Positions 34,963 to 46,483 of a stretch of 64,000 bases of DNA are shown here, one piece after another. The position numbers and the translations under genes were made by a program. The stretch spans positions 62,001-126,000 of the forward strand of contig JACPXC010000007.1 of assembly GCA_016196755.1 (NCBI GenBank). Reading direction: 5' to 3'. Under the pieces are notes generated by a model. The model saw only the letters and a list, made by a program, of their open reading frames with translations, ran no database searches and was not told where the DNA came from. The stretch is from Elusimicrobiota bacterium. Its GTDB lineage: Bacteria > Elusimicrobiota > Elusimicrobia > UBA1565. The stretch's first letter is position 1. Every line of letters starts with the position of its first letter.

Positions 34963-35796
34963 ATGGCGCGACTCCTGCTATATTGCGTTCGATGCCGTCG
35001 CGTCGGACACTCTGAGACGCCCCCTGAGCCGAACATCCCCAAGAGAGAGGACACGAAAGCGCCCCGTCAGGAACCCGCCGTCCAAAAAAAAGACTCCTGC
35101 GCCATCGGCAGCGTCTATGAGATGCTCAACACCGCCGTCCCGCTGGCGAGGAAGCATCTCCGCGAGCCCCGGCTCTATTCCATCCAGAGAGCCGTCGACT
35201 CCAGCCTCCAGGCGATGATCAGCGACGACAAGGAGTTCCGCTGGGAGTTCGTGTTTTCCGACGCCGAGTCGGAAAAATATCTCCATTTCATCCATTCCAA
35301 AGCCCGGCCGGTGGAATATTTCGTCCTGACAAAGAACCCCAAGGCGTTTGGCAACGCCCTCATACACCGCGCGCCGTCATCCGGCGGCCCGTTTTACGAC
35401 GTAGTCAAATGGTCCTTCGACCCGGCGGCAAAGTCCTGGTCCAAAAAGACGGGCGACGTGGTCACCATGGGCCGATCCCCGTGCGGACTGATCAACGTAA
35501 AGTTCGTCGATTCGCTGGACGTGGAATCCCTGCTGGCGCGGATCGGGGCTCCCATGTGCGACCCGGCTCAGCCGGAACGCTCCAAGGTCCAGGTCTCGCT
35601 CTTCCACCCCGTCCCGTCCGATAGTCCCGGCGCGATATGCAGGGGGCAATCCCTTTTCGGCTTCGCCGACGACGTGTGGGAGAACTACAGGCTGGCGCCC
35701 GCCCCCGGCAATCTCTGGGGAATCTATGCCGACAAGACCGTGACCTTCCTGGATGCCGCAAGCGGGAAAGTCCTCTACCGCGGACCTACGAAATGA
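34963..35796 (+). CDS. Hypothetical protein, possibly exported
   Basis: 277 residues if started at ATG 34963 (the frame is open to 34876, and the start is uncertain). The N-terminus MARLLLYCVRCRRVG is short and only weakly signal-like. The body has two or three beta-rich parts (EFRWEFVFSDAESEKYLHFI, WGIYADKTVTFLDAASGKVL) and four Cys. No family recognised. Its codon use is less GC-extreme than its neighbours. The 3' end overlaps the convergent kinase gene by 11 nt. Confidence 0.5.
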   Translation: MARLLLYCVRCRRVGHSETPPEPNIPKREDTKAPRQEPAVQKKDSCAIGSVYEMLNTAVPLARKHLREPRLYSIQRAVDSSLQAMISDDKEFRWEFVFSDAESEKYLHFIHSKARPVEYFVLTKNPKAFGNALIHRAPSSGGPFYDVVKWSFDPAAKSWSKKTGDVVTMGRSPCGLINVKFVDSLDVESLLARIGAPMCDPAQPERSKVQVSLFHPVPSDSPGAICRGQSLFGFADDVWENYRLAPAPGNLWGIYADKTVTFLDAASGKVLYRGPTK

Positions 35797-37204
35797 CGGA
35801 AAGGCCGCGGCAGGCGGCGACTAGGTCCGCGGCGCTAGGATAGCGGCGGCCGGTCTCGGGAGCCAGCGCCGTCGCGAATACCGCGTCGATCCCCGCCGGC
35901 AGGTCCGGCACCAGCCCGCTGGGCGCCGCCCACAGCGCCTCGCGCTTCTGGGCCAGGAAGTTCGGCCCCTTGAACGGCAGCTCCCCGGTCAGCATCTCGT
36001 AGAGGCAGACCGCCAGGGCGTAGACGTCGACGGCGGCCGAGACGCCCCCCAGCTCCTGCTCGGGCGCCATGTAGGGCGGCGTCCCCCAGGACGGGGCGCG
36101 GGTCAGGCGAGAGACCGACTTGGCGGCTTGGTAGGCGATGCCGAAGTCCATCACCTTGACCTCGCCGGTCGTCGACAGCATGATGTTGGCGGGCTTCAAG
36201 TCGCGATGGATCACCTTGCGTCCGTGGGCGTAGTCGACGGCGGCGCCGGCGCCTTCGAGCACGTGGAGGGAGTCGGCCCAGGCCAGGCGCCCCGAGCTAC
36301 CCAGGCGCTCGGCGAGCGACCGGCCGTCCACGTACTCGAGGGCGAGGTAGACCTGGCCGCCGTCGCGCTCGACGCCGTAGATCGCCACCATGTTGGGATG
36401 CTTGAGCGCGGCCATGACCCGGGCCTCGTTAAGGAGGCGCTCGAGCTCCCGCGGGTCCTGGAGCAGCTCCGCGCGCAGCCGCTTGAGCGCCACGCGGCGA
36501 TCGAGGGTCTTGTCCAAGGCCTCGTAGACCTCCCCCATGCTCCCGCGCCCGAGCGGGCGCACGAGCTCGAAGTTCGCCGCCACGACGCGCGCAGAGGCCG
36601 GCGCCGCCCCCGGGGCGGCGTCGGCGGACGGCCGGGCTCGCCGGACCAGTGCCGCGAATAGGAGTCCCGCCGCCGCGAGCAAACCGGCCGCCCCCGCCAT
36701 GAACCTCCGGAAACTTGCCGTCTCCAGAGCGCGACCGGACTTCTCGCGCAGCGGGGTGAAGAGCGCGCCCTCGACTTTGTAGGCGTCGATGATGCGCTCC
36801 GCCCGCGACTTCATCCGCTCGAGTTCCTCCATGCGCCTGAGCAGGGCGCCGCCGTGCTTGGGGGGAACGAACTCCCCCCGCCTGGCCCGGCCGAGATCGC
36901 GGGTCAGCGCCAGGAGCTGGAGGGCGCGCACTCCCTTGTCGTGGTTGGTGCGCAGCTCCTGCTCCCATGCCCAGAACTCGCCGCACTCTCCGGCCAGGGT
37001 CTCCCAGCGCTTGCTCAGTTCCGGCTTCTGCTCGGAGCCCGGAAACGCGGCACGGATCTCCCTCATCTCGGCCAGGACGGCGTCCATGCGGTCGGCGCGC
37101 TTATGGAACTCCCTCTCGAGGACCTCGATGCCGCGCGGCGAGGCGGCGAGGTCGGAGGAGGACGCGGCTCCGGCCAGACACAGCGCCAGCCGCAGGACCA
37201 GCAT
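35786..37204 (-). CDS. Membrane Ser/Thr protein kinase with N-terminal sensor segment
   Basis: 472 residues. Signal/anchor at 1-20, then an extracytoplasmic helical, coiled-coil-like region (25-165) and one membrane helix at 169-187. The Hanks kinase domain is C-terminal (212-472): GRGSMGEVY (219-227), ATP lysine 241 in VALKRL, HRDLKPAN (333-340, catalytic Asp335), DFG 353-355, GTPPYMAPE (374-382). Most bacterial PASTA or PknB-type kinases have the reverse order. It begins 8 nt after argH and may be the last gene of the arginine transcript, though no functional link is evident. Confidence 0.92.
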   Translation of the reverse strand: MLVLRLALCLAGAASSSDLAASPRGIEVLEREFHKRADRMDAVLAEMREIRAAFPGSEQKPELSKRWETLAGECGEFWAWEQELRTNHDKGVRALQLLALTRDLGRARRGEFVPPKHGGALLRRMEELERMKSRAERIIDAYKVEGALFTPLREKSGRALETASFRRFMAGAAGLLAAAGLLFAALVRRARPSADAAPGAAPASARVVAANFELVRPLGRGSMGEVYEALDKTLDRRVALKRLRAELLQDPRELERLLNEARVMAALKHPNMVAIYGVERDGGQVYLALEYVDGRSLAERLGSSGRLAWADSLHVLEGAGAAVDYAHGRKVIHRDLKPANIMLSTTGEVKVMDFGIAYQAAKSVSRLTRAPSWGTPPYMAPEQELGGVSAAVDVYALAVCLYEMLTGELPFKGPNFLAQKREALWAAPSGLVPDLPAGIDAVFATALAPETGRRYPSAADLVAACRGLSVIS

Positions 37205-37211
37205 GCGGTCC

Positions 37212-38549
37212 CTAGCCCCGCAGCAGGCGCTTCCAGGCCCCGCGCAGCGCGGCGCCGCGGCGCCCGTTCCAGCGCGCCTCCGCGGCCAAGCCGGAGGCCA
37301 GAGCGCGCAGCCCGGGGTTGCCCGGCGCGCCGAGGTAGGCGGGCAGATCCACGCGCCCCGCCGTCCTCTGCCCGTCCTGGCGAGCGGCCGCCGCCACCCG
37401 GCGGTAGGCCTCCCGGAACGGCAGCCCCTTCTTCACGAGGTCCAGCGCGCGCTGGGTCGCCAGCAGGTCCTGGGTCACCGCGGCGCGGCAGCGCGCCGCG
37501 TCGACCCGGACCGCGCCGGCTAGGCGAGCGGCCATATCCACCATCGCCGCGGCCGCATCGAGCGCCGCGAAGAGCGGGCGCTTCGAGAGCTGGAAGTCGC
37601 GGTGATAGCCCGAGGCGGCCGGGCCTGCGGACAGGGCCTGGAGGACCCAGCCCGGGAATTGCGCGGCCCGCGCGCGCAGGAGCTCGGCGACGTCGGGGTT
37701 GCGCTTCTGGGGCATGATGCTCGAGCCCGTCGTGAAGGCGGGGTCGAGCTTCATGAAGCCGAACTCGGCGGTGGCGAAGAGGCAGAGGTCCCCGGCCAAG
37801 ACCCCCAGGTCCTTGGCCACGAGAGCCAGGGCTGAGATCACGGCCGCGTCGATGCGCGGGCGGGAGGTCTGCACGCGCAGGGTGTTCAGCTGAACGCGCG
37901 TGAAGCCCATGAGCCGCGCCGTAAACGCCCTGTCGAGCGGCAGCGGAGCCCCATAGCCTGCCGCGCTGCCCAGCGGCGAGGCGTCGGCCTCGTCGAAGGC
38001 CTGGCGAATCGAGCGGCAGCCGTCCAGGAGCGCCTCCACGTGCGAGGCCGCCCAATGGCCGGCCGTGGTCGGCATCGCGCGTTGAAGATGGGTATACCCA
38101 GGCATCAAGACCTTCGCGTGGCGCCCCGCGAAGGCCGACCAGGCGCCGGCCGCCGCGGCGGCGCCGGCATGGAGCTCGAGCAGGCGGTCCATCATGAAGA
38201 GCCGCAGGTCGGTCTGGACCTGGTCGTTGCGCGAGCGGCCCGCATGGATGCTCTTGCCAAGCTCGCCGAGGCGCTCGGTCAGGCGCTGCTCGACGGCGGT
38301 GTGGATGTCTTCCTGCTCCGGGAGTATGACGAAGGACTCGTCCTCCAGCAGGCGTCCGAGCTCCGTGCGGATCGCCCGCCATTCGCCGTCGGACAAGAGC
38401 CCCAGCTTGACTAGGCCCTTGGCGTGAGCCAGGGTCCCGGTGACCTCGTAGGGCAGCAGGCGCCGGTCGAGGACCGGGTCCTCGCCCACGGTGAAGCGCT
38501 GGACCGCTTCGTCCAAGGTCTGGCCCTCCACCTGCCACAGCTTGCTCAC
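37212..38549 (-). CDS. argH: Argininosuccinate lyase
   Basis: 445 residues. Fumarase/ASL superfamily signatures: GRSRNDQ (104-110), HLQRAMP with the acid His154, and GSSIMPQKRNPD (275-286) carrying the catalytic Ser loop. Splits argininosuccinate into arginine and fumarate. It is the last arginine gene of the leftward operon and overlaps the upstream argE by 4 nt. Confidence 0.96.
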   Translation of the reverse strand: MSKLWQVEGQTLDEAVQRFTVGEDPVLDRRLLPYEVTGTLAHAKGLVKLGLLSDGEWRAIRTELGRLLEDESFVILPEQEDIHTAVEQRLTERLGELGKSIHAGRSRNDQVQTDLRLFMMDRLLELHAGAAAAAGAWSAFAGRHAKVLMPGYTHLQRAMPTTAGHWAASHVEALLDGCRSIRQAFDEADASPLGSAAGYGAPLPLDRAFTARLMGFTRVQLNTLRVQTSRPRIDAAVISALALVAKDLGVLAGDLCLFATAEFGFMKLDPAFTTGSSIMPQKRNPDVAELLRARAAQFPGWVLQALSAGPAASGYHRDFQLSKRPLFAALDAAAAMVDMAARLAGAVRVDAARCRAAVTQDLLATQRALDLVKKGLPFREAYRRVAAAARQDGQRTAGRVDLPAYLGAPGNPGLRALASGLAAEARWNGRRGAALRGAWKRLLRG

Positions 38550-39604
38550 CGTCCCCCCATCAGCCCGAAATAGGCCCGGATCAGCCGCTCGTAGTAGGCC
38601 ACGCCGGCCTCGAGCTCCGCTATCGTAAGGAATTCGTCGAGCGTATGCGAGCGCCGCGAGTCGCCGGGCCCCACCTTCACCGTCGGGATGCCCTTGAGGG
38701 CGACCCAGTCCGAGATCGTCGGCGAGCCGAAGCAGGCGCCGGCGCCGGCCGCCAGCGCGGCGCGCACCACGGGCTGGGCGGGGTCGGTGTCGACCGCGCC
38801 CAGGCGCGAGGAGCGCACCGTCACCGCGCCGCCCACCCGGCCCTGCACCATGGCGACGAGCTCCGACACCTCGTAGGCCGGCGTGGTGCGGATGTCGACG
38901 ACAAGCTTGCAGCGGTCGGGGATGACGTTGTGGCGCTCACCGCCGTGGATCTGGGTGACGGCCAGGCTCGGGAGGCCTAAGGCCGGATGCGGCCGGTCAA
39001 AGCCCACGGCCTCCAGGGCCAGTACGTCGCGCGCGGCTTTCGTCACGGCGTTGTCCCCCCCGCCCCAGGCGGCGTGGGCCGCACGCCCCTCGGCCATGAC
39101 CTCGAGGAGGAGAAGTCCCTTCTGGGCCACCGCCGGCGCCAGGCCGGTGGGCTCACCGACCACCGCGGCGTCGGGACGCGGCAGGAGGGGCAGGAGCTCC
39201 GCCATGCCGCGGTTGGTGGTCTCCTCCTCGCAGACGGCCGAGACGACGACGGTGCCGCGCGGCGCGTCATCCTCGAAGGCCGCCGCCGCGCCCAGGATCA
39301 TCGCCGTGAGGCAGCCTTTGGCGTCGTTGGCGCCGCGCCCGTAGACGCGGCCGTCCTCGACGACGGCCTCGAGCGGCGGCTTGGTCCAGCCCGCGCCGAC
39401 CGGCACGGTGTCCATGTGCGAGTTAAAGAGCAGGGTCGGCCCGCCCGAGCCGAGCACGGCGTGCAGGTTGCGCCCCGTCCGCCGCGGCTCCCAGCCGAGG
39501 TCCTTGAACGTCCCCTCGAGCAGGTCGGCCGCGGCGTCCTCGGCGCCGCTCTCCGAGGGCGTCTGGACCAGGCGGCGCAGCAGGGCGACGGCGTCGCGGC
39601 TCAT
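38546..39604 (-). CDS. argE: M20 deacylase, ArgE type (probably N-acylcitrulline deacylase)
   Basis: 352 residues. M20 metallopeptidase ligands: His63 and Asp65 (NSHMDTVP), Asp94 (GANDAKG), Glu126/Glu127 (CEEE) and GEPTG; a C-terminal His in RRSHTLDEF. Because the operon has an acylornithine carbamoyltransferase in place of a normal OTC, the likely substrate is N-acetyl- or N-succinyl-citrulline and not N-acetylornithine (inference from context). Overlaps argB and argH by 4 nt each. Confidence 0.88.
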   Translation of the reverse strand: MSRDAVALLRRLVQTPSESGAEDAAADLLEGTFKDLGWEPRRTGRNLHAVLGSGGPTLLFNSHMDTVPVGAGWTKPPLEAVVEDGRVYGRGANDAKGCLTAMILGAAAAFEDDAPRGTVVVSAVCEEETTNRGMAELLPLLPRPDAAVVGEPTGLAPAVAQKGLLLLEVMAEGRAAHAAWGGGDNAVTKAARDVLALEAVGFDRPHPALGLPSLAVTQIHGGERHNVIPDRCKLVVDIRTTPAYEVSELVAMVQGRVGGAVTVRSSRLGAVDTDPAQPVVRAALAAGAGACFGSPTISDWVALKGIPTVKVGPGDSRRSHTLDEFLTIAELEAGVAYYERLIRAYFGLMGGR

Positions 39605-40539
39605 GCGGCCACGGCGTCTTTGGCGAGCTCCTTCTGGTAGGCGTCGCGTTCGCGGCTCTCGACGATCATCGTCCCGCAGCCCGCGTTGGTGAACACCTCG
39701 GTGACCAGGGCCGAGCGGCGCATGCCGCCCAGGATGTGGGTGCGGCGCACGCCGCCCCGGAGCGCGGCCACGCAGGCCTGCACCTTCGGCAGCATCCCGC
39801 CGCGCACCCGGCCCTCGGAGCAGAGCTCGAGCACCTCGGCCGCGTCGGCGTGGCTGACCAGGGTCCGCGGGTCGGCCGCGTCGCGCAGGACACCGTCGAT
39901 GTCGGTGAGAAGGAGCAGCTTCTCGGCCTTGAGGGCCTGGGCGATCGCCGACGACAGCGTGTCGGCGTTGAGGTTGAGGATCTGGCCCTGCGCGTCGGCC
40001 ACCAGCGGGGCGATGACCGGCAGGAGCCCCTGGGACAGGAAGCCCTCGAGCAGGGCCCCGTCCACGGTCTCGACGTCGCCGACCAGGCCGTAGTCGACCT
40101 CGACCGGGTCCTCCCCCGGCGCGGGCGACACGCGCACCGGGCCCCTCTTGCGGGCCACGACCAGGCCCGCGTCCACACCCGATAGCCCCACGGCCCTCAC
40201 GCCCTGCCCGCGCAGCGCGGCCACCAGGTCCATGTTGACGAGGCCGCCGCAGGTCATCTTCACGACCTCGAGGGTCTCGGCGTCGGTGACGCGGCGCCCG
40301 GCGACGAGCTTGGTCTCGAGGCCCAAGGCCTTCGACAGGCTCGTGGCCTGGGGACCGCCGCCATGGACCAGCACGACCCGGATGCCGAAATGGTGCAGGC
40401 AGGCGATGTCGGCGGCCAGCCCGGCGCGCAGCTCCTCGCGGGCGAGGACGGCGCCTCCGGCCTTGACGACGAATGTCTTCCCTTTATAGAGCCGCAGGTA
40501 CGGCATGGCCTGGTACAGGGTCACGGGAGCGTCGGTCAT
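39601..40539 (-). CDS. argB: Acetylglutamate kinase-like N-acylglutamate kinase
   Basis: 312 residues. Amino-acid kinase fold: FVVKAGGAVL, VVLVHGGGPQ (glycine-rich loop), NLNADTLSSAIAQAL, LLLLTDIDGVL and GGMLPKVQAC. Phosphorylates N-acylglutamate. The C-terminal region is too short for a fused acetyltransferase, so it is not a bifunctional NAGS/NAGK of the Xanthomonas kind. It starts right at the end of the carbamoyltransferase gene. Confidence 0.95.
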   Translation of the reverse strand: MTDAPVTLYQAMPYLRLYKGKTFVVKAGGAVLAREELRAGLAADIACLHHFGIRVVLVHGGGPQATSLSKALGLETKLVAGRRVTDAETLEVVKMTCGGLVNMDLVAALRGQGVRAVGLSGVDAGLVVARKRGPVRVSPAPGEDPVEVDYGLVGDVETVDGALLEGFLSQGLLPVIAPLVADAQGQILNLNADTLSSAIAQALKAEKLLLLTDIDGVLRDAADPRTLVSHADAAEVLELCSEGRVRGGMLPKVQACVAALRGGVRRTHILGGMRRSALVTEVFTNAGCGTMIVESRERDAYQKELAKDAVAA

Positions 40540-41559
40540 TTAGAGTCCTCCGAGTAGTTTGAGAAGAAGGGCCTTCGCCGTATGGAGGCGGTTCTCGGCC
40601 TGGTCGATGACGACCGACGCCGGGCCGTCGAGCACGGCGTCGTCGACGACGAGGTTGCGGCGCACGGGCAGGCAATGCATGAACAGGCCGGCCTTGGTCT
40701 TCGCCATCTTGGCCGCCGTCATGCGCCAGCGGTCGCGGAACGCGGAATCTTGGGGCGGCGGGACCCCGTAGCTGGCCAGCGAGCCCCAGGCCTTGGCGTA
40801 GACCACGTGGGCGCCGTCGAAGGCGGTCTCGGGAGAGTCGGTGACCGTCACGCTGCGGCCCTGGCGCGCGGCCTCGGCGCGGCACCACTCCATGACGCCG
40901 GGGTCGAGGTCATAGCCCTCGGGCCGGCAGATGGTCAGGTCCATCCCCGCGATGACGGCGGCCTGGGCGGCCGAGTGCGGCACCGCCAGCGGCAGGGCCT
41001 TGATGTGCGGCGCCCAGGCCAGCACGAAGCGCTTGCCGACCGGGTCGGCCTTCTCGCGCAGGGTCATGAGGTCGGCCAGGCCTTGGCAGGGATGGCCCAT
41101 CGCCGACTCGAGGCTGATGACGGGGACCCGCGAGGAGCTCCGGAAGGCGTTGAGCCACGGGTCCGCCTTGTCGTCGGCCCACGATGTGCCGGCCGGGAAG
41201 GCGCGCAGAGCCAAGACGTCGCAATAGCGCGCCAGCACCGGGACGGACTCCTTTAAGTGCTCGGAGGCCTGCCCGTCCATGACCGTGCCGTCGCGCCATT
41301 CCATGTTCCAGGTGCCATTGCCGAAGTGCAGGGTCACCGGATGCGCTCCCAAGGACGCCGACGCCACCTGGAACGAGGTCTGCGTGCGCAAAGACGGGTT
41401 CATGAAGCACAACCCCACCGAGCGGCCCTCGAGCGGCCGGCTGCGCGGCGGCCGGCGCTTGAGCTGGAGCGCCAGGTCGGCCAGGTCGATGGCCGCGCCC
41501 GCGCCCCAGTCGCGCAGGTCGACGAAGTCGCGCGACGGAGCCGCGGCTAGGGCGCTCAC
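40540..41559 (-). CDS. argF': N-acylornithine carbamoyltransferase (AOTCase/SOTCase family)
   Basis: 339 residues from GTG 41559 (overlapping the argD stop). Carbamoyl-phosphate motif SLRTQTS (56-62), HPCQ (156-159) and HCLPVRR (295-301). HCLPVRR, the WNMEWRDGTVMDG block and the C-terminus DQAENRLHTAKALL are typical of the N-acetyl/N-succinyl-ornithine enzymes of Xanthomonas and Bacteroides; ordinary OTCs have HCLPAFH. The residue aligned with the specificity switch (Glu92 in Xanthomonas AOTCase, Pro90 in Bacteroides SOTCase), just before Glu-His, is Ser99 here. From published mutants as I remember them, Ser there favours N-succinylornithine. Confidence 0.92.
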   Translation of the reverse strand: MSALAAAPSRDFVDLRDWGAGAAIDLADLALQLKRRPPRSRPLEGRSVGLCFMNPSLRTQTSFQVASASLGAHPVTLHFGNGTWNMEWRDGTVMDGQASEHLKESVPVLARYCDVLALRAFPAGTSWADDKADPWLNAFRSSSRVPVISLESAMGHPCQGLADLMTLREKADPVGKRFVLAWAPHIKALPLAVPHSAAQAAVIAGMDLTICRPEGYDLDPGVMEWCRAEAARQGRSVTVTDSPETAFDGAHVVYAKAWGSLASYGVPPPQDSAFRDRWRMTAAKMAKTKAGLFMHCLPVRRNLVVDDAVLDGPASVVIDQAENRLHTAKALLLKLLGGL

Positions 41560-42713
41560 TTGTACTCCTTGAGCGCGGCGGCCAGGCGGTCCACCTCGGC
41601 CTCGCCGATGGTCAAAGGCGGCAGGAGGCGCAGGACGTTGGGGTCCTCTGCGAGCCCGGTCAGGATGCGGCGCTCGACTAAGTGGTCGCGCAGTTCGCGC
41701 GCCGGCCGGTCGAGGACGAGTCCCAAGAGCAGGCCCTTGCCGCGGATCTCCTTGAGCGCCGGGTGCTTGAGCTTGGCCCTGAAGCGCGCCTCGAGGGCCT
41801 TGGCCTTGCGCCACAGCCGGCCCTTGATGATGGTCCGGATCGTGGCCTCCACCGCCGCGCAGGCCAGCGGGCCGCCTCCGAAGGTCGAGCCCAGGGCCCC
41901 GGGCTGGAGCTTGTGCACGAGCTCGGGGGCGATGACGATGGCGCCGCAGGGGACCCCGGAGGCCAGGGCCTTGGCGAAGCTCTGCACGCCGGGCTTGACC
42001 CGGAAGGCCTGGGCGGCCGACGGGGCGCCGAGCCGGCCGAGGCCGGTCTGCACCTCGTCGAATATGAGCACGGCGCCGCTCTTGCGGCAGAGCTTCTCGA
42101 GGCCCTTGAGATAGCCCCTGGGCGGCATGACGATCCCGGACATACTCTGGATGGGCTCCAAGATGAACGCCGCCGCGTCGCGCCTCAGGGCGGCCTTGGC
42201 GGCCTTGAGGTCGCCGAAGCGGACATGGACCGTGTCGGACTCGGCACTCGTCATCGCATGCTTGTACTTGGCGATGCCGGTGGCGGCCAGCGAGCCCGCC
42301 GTGCGGCCGTGGAAGGAGCCGTAGGTGGCGACGACCTTGGGGCGTCCGGTGACCAGCCGCGCCACGCGCAGGGCGGCCTCGTTGGCCTCGGTGCCCGAGT
42401 TGCAGAAGAACACCTGGGCGTCCTTGGCGGCGCAGAGCTCGATGAGCGCCGCGGCCGCGCGGGTGCGGACCGACGAGTATACGAGGTTGGAGTAGAACAG
42501 GAGGACGTCGGCCTGCGCGCGCACGGCCGATACCACGGGCTCGGGGCAGTGGCCGAGCAGGGCGACGGCGTGGCCGCCGTAGAGGTCGAGGTACTCGACC
42601 CCCTTGTCGTCGCGCACGAAGTGCCCCTTTCCTCCCGCCACGACGAACGGAAAGCGCCCGTAGGTGGGCAGGACGTACTTGTCTTCCAGAAGCATGGCGT
42701 CGGTCTTCGTCAC
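41556..42713 (-). CDS. argD: Acylornithine aminotransferase
   Basis: 385 residues from GTG 42713 (GTGA overlap with argC). Class III aminotransferase marks: YLDLYGGHAVALLGHCPEPV, FFCNSGTEANEAALRVAR, GSFHGRTAGSLAATG, FDEVQTGLGRLG and PLP lysine 248 in SFAKALASG. The longer frame upstream of this start is an antisense shadow of argC. Converts N-acylglutamate semialdehyde to N-acylornithine. Confidence 0.95.
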   Translation of the reverse strand: MTKTDAMLLEDKYVLPTYGRFPFVVAGGKGHFVRDDKGVEYLDLYGGHAVALLGHCPEPVVSAVRAQADVLLFYSNLVYSSVRTRAAAALIELCAAKDAQVFFCNSGTEANEAALRVARLVTGRPKVVATYGSFHGRTAGSLAATGIAKYKHAMTSAESDTVHVRFGDLKAAKAALRRDAAAFILEPIQSMSGIVMPPRGYLKGLEKLCRKSGAVLIFDEVQTGLGRLGAPSAAQAFRVKPGVQSFAKALASGVPCGAIVIAPELVHKLQPGALGSTFGGGPLACAAVEATIRTIIKGRLWRKAKALEARFRAKLKHPALKEIRGKGLLLGLVLDRPARELRDHLVERRILTGLAEDPNVLRLLPPLTIGEAEVDRLAAALKEYK

Positions 42714-43720
42714 GGATAACTCCCCGGAAGGCGCAGGCCTTCCGATTCGTCGAGTCCCAGCATGAGGTTGAGGTTCTGCACGGCTTGGCCGGCGGCGCCC
42801 TTGATGAGGTTGTCGAGCGCGGCGAGCACCACGGCCTGCCCGCCTTCTACGCGCGCGTAGAGATCGCAGGAATTGGAGCCCGTGACGGCGTTGAGCTCGG
42901 GCGGCGCGTCGAGCAGGCGCAGGAACGGCTTGCCCTCGCAGAACGACGCGAAGGCCGCGGCCACGCGCGCCGCATCCCAGCCTGCGGCGAGCGGCACGGT
43001 AGCGATGGCGTAGATGCCGCGCACGTACGGGCCCGACACCGCGGTCAGCGCGACTTTGAGCCCGCCAAGCGCCTGCTCCACCTCGGGAGCGTGCTGATGC
43101 GCGAGCGGCTTGTAGGCGCGCACGTTGCCTTCCCGCGTCGGGTGGTGCGTGGTGGCCGACGGCTTGACTCCCGAGCCCGAGGAGCCGGTGATGGCCGTCA
43201 CGGCGGCCGTCCCAGTCAGCCCCGTCTTGGCAAGCGGCGCAAGGGCGAGAACGACCGCGGTGGCGATGCAGCCGGGGTTGGCGACGCGCGAGGCGCCCTT
43301 GAGCGCGGCCCCTCCGAGTTCGGGCATCCCATAGACGAAGCTCGGCAAGAGCTGCGGCGAGCGGTGCTCGCGCCCGTACCACACGGGATAGAGCGCCGGA
43401 TCCTTGAGGCGGAAATCGCCAGAGAGGTCGACGAGCTTGAGGCCAGGCGCGCGCTCGAGGAGGCCGGGTGCCTGCTCCATCGCTTCACCGTGGCCGCCAG
43501 CGAGGAACACCACGTCGAGCCCAGCCGGGTCCAGCGTCGGCGCAAAGCTCATGGTCGTATGGCCGCGCAGATTGGGATGGGCCTTGGCCACCGGTTGGCC
43601 GGCATGCGTCGCCGAAGAGGCGCGCACGAGCTCCACGCCGGGATGGCCCAAGAGCAGACGCAGGAGCTCGCCGCCGGTAAACCCCCCGGCGCCGGAAACG
43701 CCGACCTTCGGCTTGGTCAC
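42710..43720 (-). CDS. argC: N-acyl-gamma-glutamyl-phosphate reductase
   Basis: 336 residues. NADP-binding GVSGAGGFTGGELLRLLL, active-site Cys151 in VANPGCIATA, TAITGSSGSGVKPS and the HAPEVEQAL segment. Reduces the acyl phosphate made by ArgB to the semialdehyde. Both ends overlap neighbours by 4 nt. Confidence 0.96.
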   Translation of the reverse strand: MTKPKVGVSGAGGFTGGELLRLLLGHPGVELVRASSATHAGQPVAKAHPNLRGHTTMSFAPTLDPAGLDVVFLAGGHGEAMEQAPGLLERAPGLKLVDLSGDFRLKDPALYPVWYGREHRSPQLLPSFVYGMPELGGAALKGASRVANPGCIATAVVLALAPLAKTGLTGTAAVTAITGSSGSGVKPSATTHHPTREGNVRAYKPLAHQHAPEVEQALGGLKVALTAVSGPYVRGIYAIATVPLAAGWDAARVAAAFASFCEGKPFLRLLDAPPELNAVTGSNSCDLYARVEGGQAVVLAALDNLIKGAAGQAVQNLNLMLGLDESEGLRLPGSYP

Positions 43721-44766
43721 GCCGCCGCCGGCCAGAGCAGGTTCTCCACCGCCGCGCCCAAGGCCTCGGGGTCGAGCCGGGCGTTTAGGGCCGGCACGCC
43801 GATCTGCTTCTCGACGAAGTCCTTGCCCACCGAGTTGTCGGTAGCCGGCCCCGAGATGATGTGGACCGGCAGCTTGAAGCGGTTGCGGTAGAGCTCCGCG
43901 CAGCCCCAGGCCGCCACCGGGTCGGTGGCGCAGAGGACGTGCGCGGTGCCGGCCGCCATGAGCTCGGGGTCGGACAGGATGGCCTGGACCCCGTACTCGC
44001 CCATGATGCCGTCGCCGAGCTCGACGACCAGGCAGTCGGGCTTCTCCTTGTTAAGCGCGTTGATGAGCCCCTTGGAGACCCGGACCGCCACGGCCTCGGA
44101 GGTCGAGGCCATGCCGGCGTCGGTGAAGCTCAGGCTGAAGGCCGCGCCGCGGTCGGTCATCCCCAGGGTGTCGCGCAGGAGCGAGACCCCGGTCAGCTTC
44201 GCGGCCCCCACCCGGCGCCCGCGCCGCGAGAGCACGCGGATGATCTCGCAGCAGGCCGAGGTCTTGCCGGCCTGCATGCAGGAGCCCGCCACGTAGACGA
44301 TCGGCGCCGAGGGCTCGAGCTTGTCGGCGCAGGGCACGGCGTTGTTCTTGATCGTGGCCGGCACGCCGGTGCGCTCGCCAAGGTACGGGAAGCTCAGGAC
44401 GACGCCCAGGACCTCGGCCTTGAGGGGCGGGCCGAGCTCGGGGTTGCCGGCCGTGCACTTGCCGACGATGCCTCCGAGGTTCAAGATGTCGAGCTTGTCG
44501 CCCACGCGCACGCGGTCGGGGACGACGCCGGCGTAGCCGCGCAGGGCGCGGCGAGAGCCGAGCACGGCGGCCAGGATGTCGCCGTCGTTGAGCGGCGTCA
44601 TGCGCCCGTGCAGGTCCTCGACCGAGTTGTAGACGCTCTTGGTGCCGATCACGCGCACGGCCACCACGATCCCGTCCTCCGCCGGCACCTCGGGCGATAG
44701 CAGGGACTCGCGGCTGATCTTCGCGTTCTTGGTGGTAGATGCGATCTTGTCGAATATGACCTTCAT
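43717..44766 (-). CDS. P-loop NTPase of unknown function inside the arginine operon
   Basis: 349 residues, overlapping argG and argC by 4 nt each. Residues 1-155 are a beta-rich domain (VVAVRVIGTKSVYNSVEDL, ILNLGGIVGKC). Residues ~157-349 form a nucleotide-binding domain with GSCMQAGKTS (161-170) as an unusual P-loop, VGAAKLTGVSLLRD, DCLVVELGDGIMGEYGV as a Walker-B-like strand, and ISGPATDNSVGKDFV. It resembles the DUF1611 or BioD/MobB-like class but I cannot name it. Because no N-acetylglutamate synthase gene is seen in the operon, a metabolic role in the first step or in amino-acid activation is a tempting guess, without direct support. Confidence 0.72.
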   Translation of the reverse strand: MKVIFDKIASTTKNAKISRESLLSPEVPAEDGIVVAVRVIGTKSVYNSVEDLHGRMTPLNDGDILAAVLGSRRALRGYAGVVPDRVRVGDKLDILNLGGIVGKCTAGNPELGPPLKAEVLGVVLSFPYLGERTGVPATIKNNAVPCADKLEPSAPIVYVAGSCMQAGKTSACCEIIRVLSRRGRRVGAAKLTGVSLLRDTLGMTDRGAAFSLSFTDAGMASTSEAVAVRVSKGLINALNKEKPDCLVVELGDGIMGEYGVQAILSDPELMAAGTAHVLCATDPVAAWGCAELYRNRFKLPVHIISGPATDNSVGKDFVEKQIGVPALNARLDPEALGAAVENLLWPAAA

Positions 44767-45989
44767 GAGGCCCTCCCGGACCGCAGCGCCAGAGCCATCG
44801 GCAGGGCGTGGAGCTTCGAGAAGCCCGCCGCCTCGGCGCCGTCCCAGAGCTTCGCGGTCTCTCCATAAGCCGCGGCCTGGACGTCCATCAGGCTCCAGGG
44901 GCTCTTGACCCCGGTCACCTCGTAGCGGCCCTTGCCTAAGCGCAGGCGCGCCTCGCCGCTGACCCGGGCCTGGCTCGACTCGATCATGGCCTCGAGGTCG
45001 CGCATGACCGGGTCGTAGTAGAGCCCTTCGTGCAGCATCTGGCCGTAGAAGTCGGCCAGGTGGTTCTTCCAGAAAGCCTGCCAGCGCGTGAGGACGAGCT
45101 TCTCGAGCTCCTGGTGCGCCGCGATGAGCATGAGCGGGGCCGGGGCCTCAAAGCCGATGCGGCCCTTGATGCCGAGGATGGTGTCGCCCAGGTGTACGCC
45201 GCGGCCCAGGCCGTAGGACCGGCCGACGGCGTGCAGGGCCGCCACGAGCTCGACGCCGCCGAGCTTCTTGCCGTCGAGCGAGACCGGCACGCCCTTCTCA
45301 AAGCCGATGACCAGCTCGCGCGCCGCGGTCTCCAGGCCCGAGGCCGGAGTCGGGAAGGCGGCGTCGGGGATGGCGGTCCAGGGGTCGTGGGTCTCGCGCC
45401 CGCCCACCGTCGTCCCCCACAGGCCGGTGTTGACCGAGTAGGCCACGGTCTTGGCCGGGACGCTGACGCCGCGCTCGGCCAGCCAGGCGGTCTCCTGCTC
45501 GCGCGACCAGCCCAGGGCGCGCACCGGGGTGTGGACGCCGAGGCCCGGGGCCAGGGCCCGGAAGGCCCCGTCGAAGCGGACCTGGTCGTTGCCGGCCCCG
45601 GTCGAGCCGTGGGCCACGCCCGCGGCGCCGAGCTTCTTGGCCAGGGTAGCGACGAGCTCAGCCTGCAGGACACGCTCGGCCGAGACCGAGAGCGGATATA
45701 CCCGGCCGCGAAGGACGTTGCCCTTGATAAGGAAGGTCACGAAGCGCGCGAAGAGCTCGGCCTTGGCGTCTAAGGTGTGGTGGGCCTTGGCCCCCAAAGC
45801 CAAGGCGCGCGCCTCGATGGCCTTGAGCTCCCCGGGCTCAAAGCCCCCGGTGTCGACCGTGGCCGTGATCACCTCGGCGTTCAAGGTCTCTTGAAGCCAC
45901 TTGAGGCAAAAGGTGGTGTCGAGGCCGCCGCTGTAGGCCAGCACCAGCAGGGGCTTCCCGGAGGGGGTTGACTGTTTATTCATATTCAT
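44763..45989 (-). CDS. argG: Argininosuccinate synthase
   Basis: 408 residues from ATG 45989 (or 406 from ATG 45983, better placed relative to the promoter). PP-loop AYSGGLDT (residues 18-25), HGSTGAGNDQVRF and AYSVNTGLWG. ATP-dependent joining of citrulline and aspartate. It is the first gene of the arginine operon, placed back to back with argR, and its start codon lies within the ARG-box region. Confidence 0.95.
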   Translation of the reverse strand: MNMNKQSTPSGKPLLVLAYSGGLDTTFCLKWLQETLNAEVITATVDTGGFEPGELKAIEARALALGAKAHHTLDAKAELFARFVTFLIKGNVLRGRVYPLSVSAERVLQAELVATLAKKLGAAGVAHGSTGAGNDQVRFDGAFRALAPGLGVHTPVRALGWSREQETAWLAERGVSVPAKTVAYSVNTGLWGTTVGGRETHDPWTAIPDAAFPTPASGLETAARELVIGFEKGVPVSLDGKKLGGVELVAALHAVGRSYGLGRGVHLGDTILGIKGRIGFEAPAPLMLIAAHQELEKLVLTRWQAFWKNHLADFYGQMLHEGLYYDPVMRDLEAMIESSQARVSGEARLRLGKGRYEVTGVKSPWSLMDVQAAAYGETAKLWDGAEAAGFSKLHALPMALALRSGRAS

Positions 45990-46004
45990 GCATAATTATA
46001 CATA
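45967..46004. promoter_or_regulatory. Tandem ARG boxes (ArgR operators)
   Basis: Two 18-bp sites separated by 2 bp. Core 1 (45969-45982) is TGACTGTTTATTCA; core 2 (45989-46002) is TGCATAATTATACA. Both fit the TGAAT-WWWW-ATTCA dyad with a few changes. Paired boxes 2-3 bp apart are the usual ArgR hexamer target. They cover the -10 elements of both divergent promoters and the argG start. Confidence 0.8.
45968..45996 (+). promoter_or_regulatory. Promoter of argR
   Basis: TTGACT (45968-45973), 17-bp spacer, CATAAT (45991-45996). The predicted start is at about 46003, immediately before the ATG at 46004, so argR mRNA should be leaderless. ARG boxes overlap both elements, implying autoregulation. 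Confidence 0.65.
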
Positions 46005-46022
46005 TGAGCACCGCGATGTCAA
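45995..46022 (-). promoter_or_regulatory. Consensus promoter of the argG operon
   Basis: On the minus strand TTGACA (46022-46017), 16-bp spacer, TATAAT (46000-45995), both perfect. Transcription should begin near 45988-45986, so argG is effectively leaderless, probably using ATG 45983. The -35 lies within the argR coding start. Confidence 0.75.
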
Positions 46023-46483
46023 GAGCCCTCCCCGGCGCCTCCGATAAGCAGACGCGGCAGCGGGCGATCCTCGACGCGGTGGCCGACGGCGACCTGGCCA
46101 CGCAGTCGGACATCGTTCGGACCTTGTCCAAGCGCGGCATCCACGCGGCCCAGGCCTCGGTGTCGCGCGACATCGTCGAGCTCGGGCTCGTGAAAGCCGG
46201 CGGGGTCTACCGGACCGCGCCCGCGGGGGTCGGGGTCGCCGACCCCGAGCTGCCGCTGCGCACCTGGGTGCGCGCCGTCGAGGCCGCCGGCCCCAACCTC
46301 GTGGTCGTGCGCTGCGACCCGGGCACCGCCCAGGGCGTGGCCCGCGCGCTCGACGTGGTCCGCCCGCGCGGCGTGGTCGGCACCGTGGCCGGCGACGACA
46401 CTATCTTCGTCGCGATGCGCACGACCAAGGACGGCACGGCCTTGTCCGCCTACCTCGACGCCCGCATCTCGCGCCGGGAATAA
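46004..46483 (+). CDS. argR: Arginine repressor ArgR
   Basis: 159 residues from ATG 46004 (ATG 46016 is an alternative). The winged-helix N-terminal domain (~15-75) has RQRAILDAVADGDLATQSDI, LSKRGIHAAQASVSRDIVEL with the Ser-Arg-Asp recognition helix typical of ArgR. The C-terminal oligomerisation domain has GVVGTVAGDDTIFVAM, containing the Gly-Thr-x-x-Gly-Asp-Asp-Thr arginine-binding motif. Arginine-bound hexamers repress the operon by binding the ARG boxes directly in front of the gene. Confidence 0.94.
   Translation: MSTAMSRALPGASDKQTRQRAILDAVADGDLATQSDIVRTLSKRGIHAAQASVSRDIVELGLVKAGGVYRTAPAGVGVADPELPLRTWVRAVEAAGPNLVVVRCDPGTAQGVARALDVVRPRGVVGTVAGDDTIFVAMRTTKDGTALSAYLDARISRRE

Follow-up and report, generated by a model that had tools for sequence, protein, structure and literature searches.

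The window, i.e. the whole 64-kb stretch of DNA analyzed in this work, carries an arginine biosynthesis operon with the gene order argG-X-argC-argD-SOTC-argB-argE-argH, where SOTC stands for a predicted N-succinylornithine carbamoyltransferase. All the genes are oriented in one direction, neighbors abut or overlap by 4 bases, and the operon is divergent from argR; this gene content, order and overlap are shown directly by the sequence. According to the family assignment, there is a gene for every step from glutamate to arginine except the first one. The features are as follows:

45968..46483, plus strand: argR, arginine repressor (the limits are those of the ORF, and translation may in fact begin with the ATG at 46004); PF02863 66.7 bits and PF01316 46.4 bits, both above cut-off; TIGR01529 E = 1.3e-27, below cut-off
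45989..46002, no strand: ARG-box-like palindrome TGCATAATTATACA in the gap between argR and argG, the sole match in the window to TGNATAATTATNCA at no more than 2 mismatches
45969-45982: weaker ARG-box-like copy with 2 mismatches, 20 bases from the main palindrome
45995..46022, minus strand: sigma-70-like operon promoter TTGACA-16-TATAAT (a 12/12 consensus match only), overlapping the ARG-box-like site
44763..45989, minus strand: argG, argininosuccinate synthase; TIGR00032 303 bits, cut-off 268
43717..44766, minus strand: gene X between argG and argC, coding for a 349-aa P-loop protein, predicted N-succinylglutamate synthase (co-occurrence, fold)
42710..43720, minus strand: argC, N-acyl-gamma-glutamyl-phosphate reductase; TIGR01850 340 bits, cut-off 234
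41556..42713, minus strand: argD, acylornithine aminotransferase; PF00202 above cut-off; TIGR00707 344 bits, below the cut-off of 410
40540..41559, minus strand: carbamoyltransferase gene, predicted SOTC (motifs, alignment, PDB match, tree)
39601..40539, minus strand: argB, N-acylglutamate kinase; TIGR00761 228 bits, cut-off 151
38546..39604, minus strand: argE-like gene for an M20 deacylase, predicted to desuccinylate N-succinylcitrulline; above cut-off with PF01546 and PF07687, short of the TIGR01910 cut-off of 218 with 154 bits
37212..38549, minus strand: argH, argininosuccinate lyase; TIGR00838 309 bits, cut-off 279.5

The palindrome is the only match in 64 kb, with 0.02 expected, to TGNATAATTATNCA, which we take to be the ArgR consensus, and paired ARG-boxes 20 bases apart are also located upstream of argR in three related loci (L032, L033 and L034). 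Control of the operon by ArgR is inferred. At positions 45960-46025, argG and argR have overlapping matches to the promoter consensus, with predicted transcription starts at or beside both start codons, so both mRNAs are perhaps leaderless, and the ARG-box-like site covers both -10 elements, although all of this rests on consensus matches only. Downstream of argH there is an ORF (35786-37204, minus strand) whose translation, read by eye, contains serine/threonine protein kinase motifs.

The carbamoyltransferase ORF runs on the minus strand from 41559 to 40540, the plus strand being interrupted by stops in the same frame, and codes for a product of 339 aa. It possesses the motifs F52-N54-S56..T59 (SxRT from S56), HPCQ at 156-159 and HCLPVRRN at 295-302 (HCLP from 295), and hence the SOTCase motif set Fx(N..)xSxRT, HPxQ and HxLP. 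The first-pass annotation had described an enzyme of the N-acetyl/N-succinylornithine type with Ser99 immediately preceding Glu100-His101, without giving the strand, and this was confirmed by translation and alignment. The reading as a free-ornithine carbamoyltransferase (ArgF/ArgI) was rejected, as TIGR00658 gave 162.9 bits against a cut-off of 280.85. The NCBIfam name of the enzyme is N-acetylornithine carbamoyltransferase (385 bits against a cut-off of 288), the power of that model to separate acetyl and succinyl types being untested. The best PDB match is 3l05 (E = 7.1e-77), which has Ser at the aligned specificity site and which we take to be the E92S mutant, judging from the aligned letter alone.

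The acetyl enzyme is marked by Glu92, Asn185 and Lys302 and the succinyl enzyme by A/S/P/V/Q, P and V/I/E, respectively (PMC4581275). The corresponding codons in the window, aligned with X. campestris (Xc) and B. fragilis (Bf) residues, are:

41263..41265, minus strand: Ser99, aligned with Xc Glu92 and Bf Pro90
40990..40992, minus strand: Pro190, aligned with Xc Asn185 and Bf Pro181
40648..40650, minus strand: Val304, aligned with Xc Lys302 and Bf Ile282

In the alignment, Ser99 falls exactly on Pro90 of B. fragilis SOTCase (1js1) and Glu92 of X. campestris AOTCase (3kzc), and the remaining residues named in PMC4581275 all align at their published numbers. The triad Ser99, Pro190, Val304 is thus shown to be of the succinyl type at all three published diagnostic positions, and the acetyl-type (AOTCase) reading was rejected on it. 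The substrate-binding set and the 80s-loop Trp are kept, with Bf W75, E142, H176, K236 and R278 corresponding to W84, E151, H185, K256 and R300 in the window. Of the three succinyl anchors in B. fragilis, Arg178 is replaced by Lys187, and X. campestris AOTCase also has Lys there. Being a contact in the B. fragilis structure absent from the published diagnostic list, Arg178 was not used as a defining SOTCase feature; the change is conservative and counts mildly against the succinyl reading, its effect on succinylornithine being unknown.

Of the 80 top loci returned by a genome-wide scan, 46 have the acetyl-type triad (E-N-K) and 34 a succinyl-like one, and the split is clean, with no locus combining Glu at the first site and Pro at the second. 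The triads of the nearest relatives of the window enzyme are P-P-E, A-P-V and A-P-V, i.e. the first letter changes from one small residue to another without ever being Glu. A tree was built from 60 rows, with acetyl-type rows thinned to every fourth; its branch separating acetyl from succinyl types has 100% SH-aLRT support, and the window protein lies on the succinyl side, where it groups with L032, L033 and L034 in a supported set. Alignment A3 was made from the window, B. fragilis and 24 of the 34 succinyl-like loci. The earlier claim that Ser is unusual at this site held only in part, since PMC4581275 lists Ser among the succinyl-type letters, and 61 of 69 Bacteroidetes have S, P, A or V there (PMC7311316, GapMind). 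The claim that Ser points to succinylornithine is supported by all three diagnostic positions and the tree, and so by more than the single residue on which it had rested.

Two side observations concern the sampled loci. In 15 of the 34 succinyl-like loci, mostly from Acidobacteriota (L035, L037-L047, L050, L051, L110), the first site is Thr and the second a Pro of the succinyl type; Thr is outside the published succinyl-type letters. L110, a MAG record labelled Proteobacteria, has GNAT ArgA2 in its arginine cluster and is placed among Bacteroidota by the tree, so the label or the bin is perhaps wrong.

The two nearest Elusimicrobia relatives of the carbamoyltransferase come from the MAGs GWA2_69_24 (64%) and REEB337 (60%), both of which possess argR, argG, X, argC, argD, SOTC, argB, argE and argH in the order found in the window, with argR oppositely oriented. 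In a sample of 149 genomes of the phylum, gene X was found in one, the source genome itself, plus one marginal match (E = 7.3e-4), and among 30 loci fetched in the phylum with the enzyme as query, none of the 29 from other genomes contained a succinyl- or acetyl-type enzyme; the cassette is therefore rare in the own-phylum sample. A record titled Diapherotrites archaeon (L048) carries the whole bacterial-type cassette argG-X-argC-argD-SOTC-argB-argE-argH, owing to either transfer or mis-binning. The succinyl route has been described for Bacteroidetes, and it is likely that the succinyl-arginine operon is present outside Bacteroidota.

The missing first step was searched for among known N-acylglutamate synthases, namely ArgJ, full-length ArgA and GNAT ArgA2, with stand-alone short ArgA and ArgA3 being outside the scope. 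In the source genome, no ArgJ was found, no full-length ArgA (TIGR01890 matched only argB, below cut-off) and no GNAT ArgA2 with a 138-aa fragment as query, for which matches in other succinyl-like genomes serve as positive controls; ArgJ was also absent from all 49 genomes searched, 34 succinyl-like and 15 acetyl-type. Gene X, missed by the first-pass annotation, is the candidate first enzyme. It is present in 27 of the 34 succinyl-like loci and in none of the 46 acetyl-type loci, and at the level of whole genomes it is present in 31 of 34 and 0 of 15, respectively, the acetyl side of the latter test covering 15 of 46 genomes. Within the 34 succinyl-like genomes, GNAT ArgA2 is found in two of the three lacking X and in none with X; the remaining one (L039/G156) has neither, its arginine locus being situated on a short 5.4 kb contig.

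The same pattern was obtained for Bacteroidota, where three queries (X, GNAT and SOTC) were run over the same 247 genomes. A succinyl-type enzyme occurs in 122 genomes, and this set coincides exactly with the genomes that have X or GNAT ArgA2; neither was found in the remaining 125. X alone is present in 20 of the 122, GNAT alone in 101 and both in one (21 with X and 102 with GNAT in all), the genome with both, G227, having X inside the arginine operon and GNAT elsewhere. The thresholds (E < 1e-90 for SOTC and E < 1e-100 for X) were set after a gap had been seen, for SOTC between 322 and 246 bits, and the one for X excluded 8 of 29 matching genomes, which had distant or weak matches only. In the operons L171, L172, L174, L175 and L176, GNAT is located before argG, and in others X lies between argG and argC. 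The tight co-occurrence of X with the succinyl-type carbamoyltransferase is shown by these counts, but the X/GNAT label changes only twice on the 60-row tree, which leaves few independent events behind the co-occurrence, and the Fisher p values for Bacteroidota ignore relatedness. With the acetyl enzymes as an outgroup, X-type rows branch first in this quick tree, from which it may be inferred that X is possibly an older partner of SOTC than GNAT.

GNAT ArgA2, whose query we take to be of the BT3761/Cabys_1732 kind on the basis of operon position, without a comparison with BT3761, owes its own assignment as an N-succinylglutamate synthase to evidence of this kind together with fitness data for BT3761 (PMC9026213, PMC7311316). 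X takes its place, and the simplest reading is therefore that X catalyzes the same step. An identity of X with GNAT ArgA2 was rejected, X being a P-loop protein. Distant relatives of X in six other Bacteroidota loci (L143-L148) have no arginine operon around them and were not counted as X; one is followed by an isoaspartyl peptidase gene and another is beside an M20 (glutamate-carboxypeptidase-like) hydrolase gene, and they could conceivably be other amino-acid N-acylating P-loop enzymes.

X does not match any NCBIfam or Pfam family at E <= 0.001. In hmmscan, the window protein gave no match to DUF1611 (PF07755), 19 of the 26 aligned members, not including it, matched this family at E <= 0.1, and all 26 stayed below the gathering cut-off (best E = 1.2e-4); the alignment (A2) contained 26 of 28 sequences, the truncated L036 and L094 being excluded. 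A PDB sequence search with the single protein returned nothing at E <= 1, and a search with the X profile only weak matches, the best being dethiobiotin synthetase (DTBS, 0.013), with no DgcN among them. Invariant residues in the 26 members include, among others, G167-K168-T169 of the P-loop, K190, R198-D199, E249, G251-D252-G253, D282 and T309-D310. In the open-access literature searched, no paper was found naming X or tying DUF1611 to arginine.

The AlphaFold2 model of X built from the 26 members has a pLDDT of 94.7. Its predicted C-terminal P-loop domain matches 2g0t (Z 17.4), the DUF1611 protein 2obn (15.9) and 7xrj, titled 'N-acetyltransferase DgcN-25328' (14.9). The N-terminal 150 residues are confidently predicted as a beta-rich domain, which taken alone finds nothing in the PDB at E <= 0.001 (LexA comes closest, at a VIA Z of 3.5), and no new fold is claimed for it; of the two domains of the DUF1611/DgcN fold, only the P-loop domain has a clear counterpart in X (Z 14.9 to 17.4), the N-terminal domain of X reaching Z 3.5 at best. 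DTBS, CTP synthase and SRP GTPases fit the P-loop domain as well as DgcN does, and so the fold alone leaves the reaction undetermined. DgcN acts in D-glutamate conversion (PMC10845958, PMC12363236). Beyond what the 7xrj title states, DgcN acetylates D-glutamate with acetyl-CoA. A relative acting on glutamate would therefore be a precedent for a P-loop protein acylating glutamate.

Taken together, it is likely, although there are no activity data, that the operon codes for the succinyl-arginine pathway in full, X being a new N-succinylglutamate synthase that is non-orthologous to the known one. In the proposed scheme, the operon would convert glutamate to arginine via N-succinylated intermediates: X would succinylate L-glutamate at the nitrogen, with succinyl-CoA as the presumed donor; ArgB, ArgC and ArgD would lead from N-succinylglutamate to N-succinylornithine, which the carbamoyltransferase would turn into N-succinylcitrulline; the M20 enzyme would strip succinate, and ArgG and ArgH would complete arginine. 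The substrate specificity of every enzyme and the chemistry of X are inferred. The suggestion of the first-pass annotation that the whole pathway runs on succinylated intermediates is accordingly regarded as likely and not as shown; ArgB, ArgC and ArgE are closer to the succinyl-like loci (median identity 47%, 45% and 45%) than to the acetyl-type ones (33, 33 and 28%).

The alternative of an acetylated pathway like that of Xanthomonas, with N-acetylornithine as the cellular substrate of the carbamoyltransferase, is supported by the NCBIfam equivalog name, by Lys187, common to the window and X. campestris, and by the GNAT relative Cabys_1732 having been called an N-acetylglutamate synthase (PMC5317091). 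We consider it very improbable, given that Glu92, Asn185 and Lys302 are all replaced in the window enzyme, that E-N-K is kept in all 46 acetyl-type loci, and that ArgB and ArgE belong to the type seen in succinyl loci. It remains possible, on the other hand, that X performs the first step as an ATP-dependent ligase joining succinate and glutamate, like DTBS or CTP synthase, and not as a CoA-dependent transferase; the invariance of G167-K168-T169, K190 and E249 and the equally good match of DTBS and CTP synthase to the P-loop domain speak for this, and against it stands the title of 7xrj, which makes the glutamate-linked relative DgcN an N-acetyltransferase.

X could also be a regulator, chaperone or carrier in the succinyl pathway, the first step being carried out by an unrecognized acyltransferase encoded elsewhere. 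No activity is known for X, the search scope did not extend to short stand-alone ArgA of the GNAT type or to other acyltransferases, and neither X nor GNAT is found in one succinyl-like genome. Nevertheless, 121 of the 122 Bacteroidota SOTC genomes have either X or GNAT ArgA2 in place of the other, which weakens this explanation because a regulator is not expected to alternate with a synthase, and we regard it as unlikely.

The preferred reading of X as the N-succinylglutamate synthase allows a bolder one, likely as a single joint claim though untested for activity: X would found a non-GNAT P-loop N-acylglutamate synthase family and would catalyze the first step of the succinyl-arginine pathway, perhaps as its original enzyme, in Elusimicrobiota, Acidobacteriota, Planctomycetota, some Proteobacteria and part of Bacteroidota, whereas GNAT ArgA2 would have taken its place in most Bacteroidota. 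If true, X adds a new fold to the enzymes starting arginine synthesis. It would also close a published gap, as Holophagaceae other than Acidiparvus have been described as lacking N-acetylglutamate synthase (PMC11561045), and four Holophagaceae loci in our sample (L053, L071, L075 and L094) carry X. Since the full succinyl triad occurs in several phyla beyond Bacteroidetes, the database name 'N-acetylornithine carbamoyltransferase' is probably wrong there.

Compared with known systems, the window enzyme shares with B. fragilis SOTCase (1js1/2fg6) the SxRT, HPxQ and HCLPVRR motifs, the location in an arginine gene cluster, Pro at Xc185, an aliphatic residue at Xc302 and a non-Glu residue at Xc92, while differing from it at the key site, where it has Ser and not Pro, and in having Lys187 instead of Arg178, the identity being 36%. 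The identity to X. campestris AOTCase (3kzc) is 42% over the whole protein, yet all three specificity residues differ. X has the C-terminal P-loop domain in common with DgcN/DUF1611 proteins (7xrj, 2obn, 2g0t) but lies below the Pfam cut-off and has an N-terminal beta domain without a clear match, and the role of DgcN is in D-glutamate conversion. The Bacteroidetes succinyl-arginine pathway with GNAT ArgA2 (BT3761) shares the order argG-argC-argD-SOTC-argB-argE-argH with the window, whereas the first enzyme here is X and not GNAT, and the X type is found outside Bacteroidota too.
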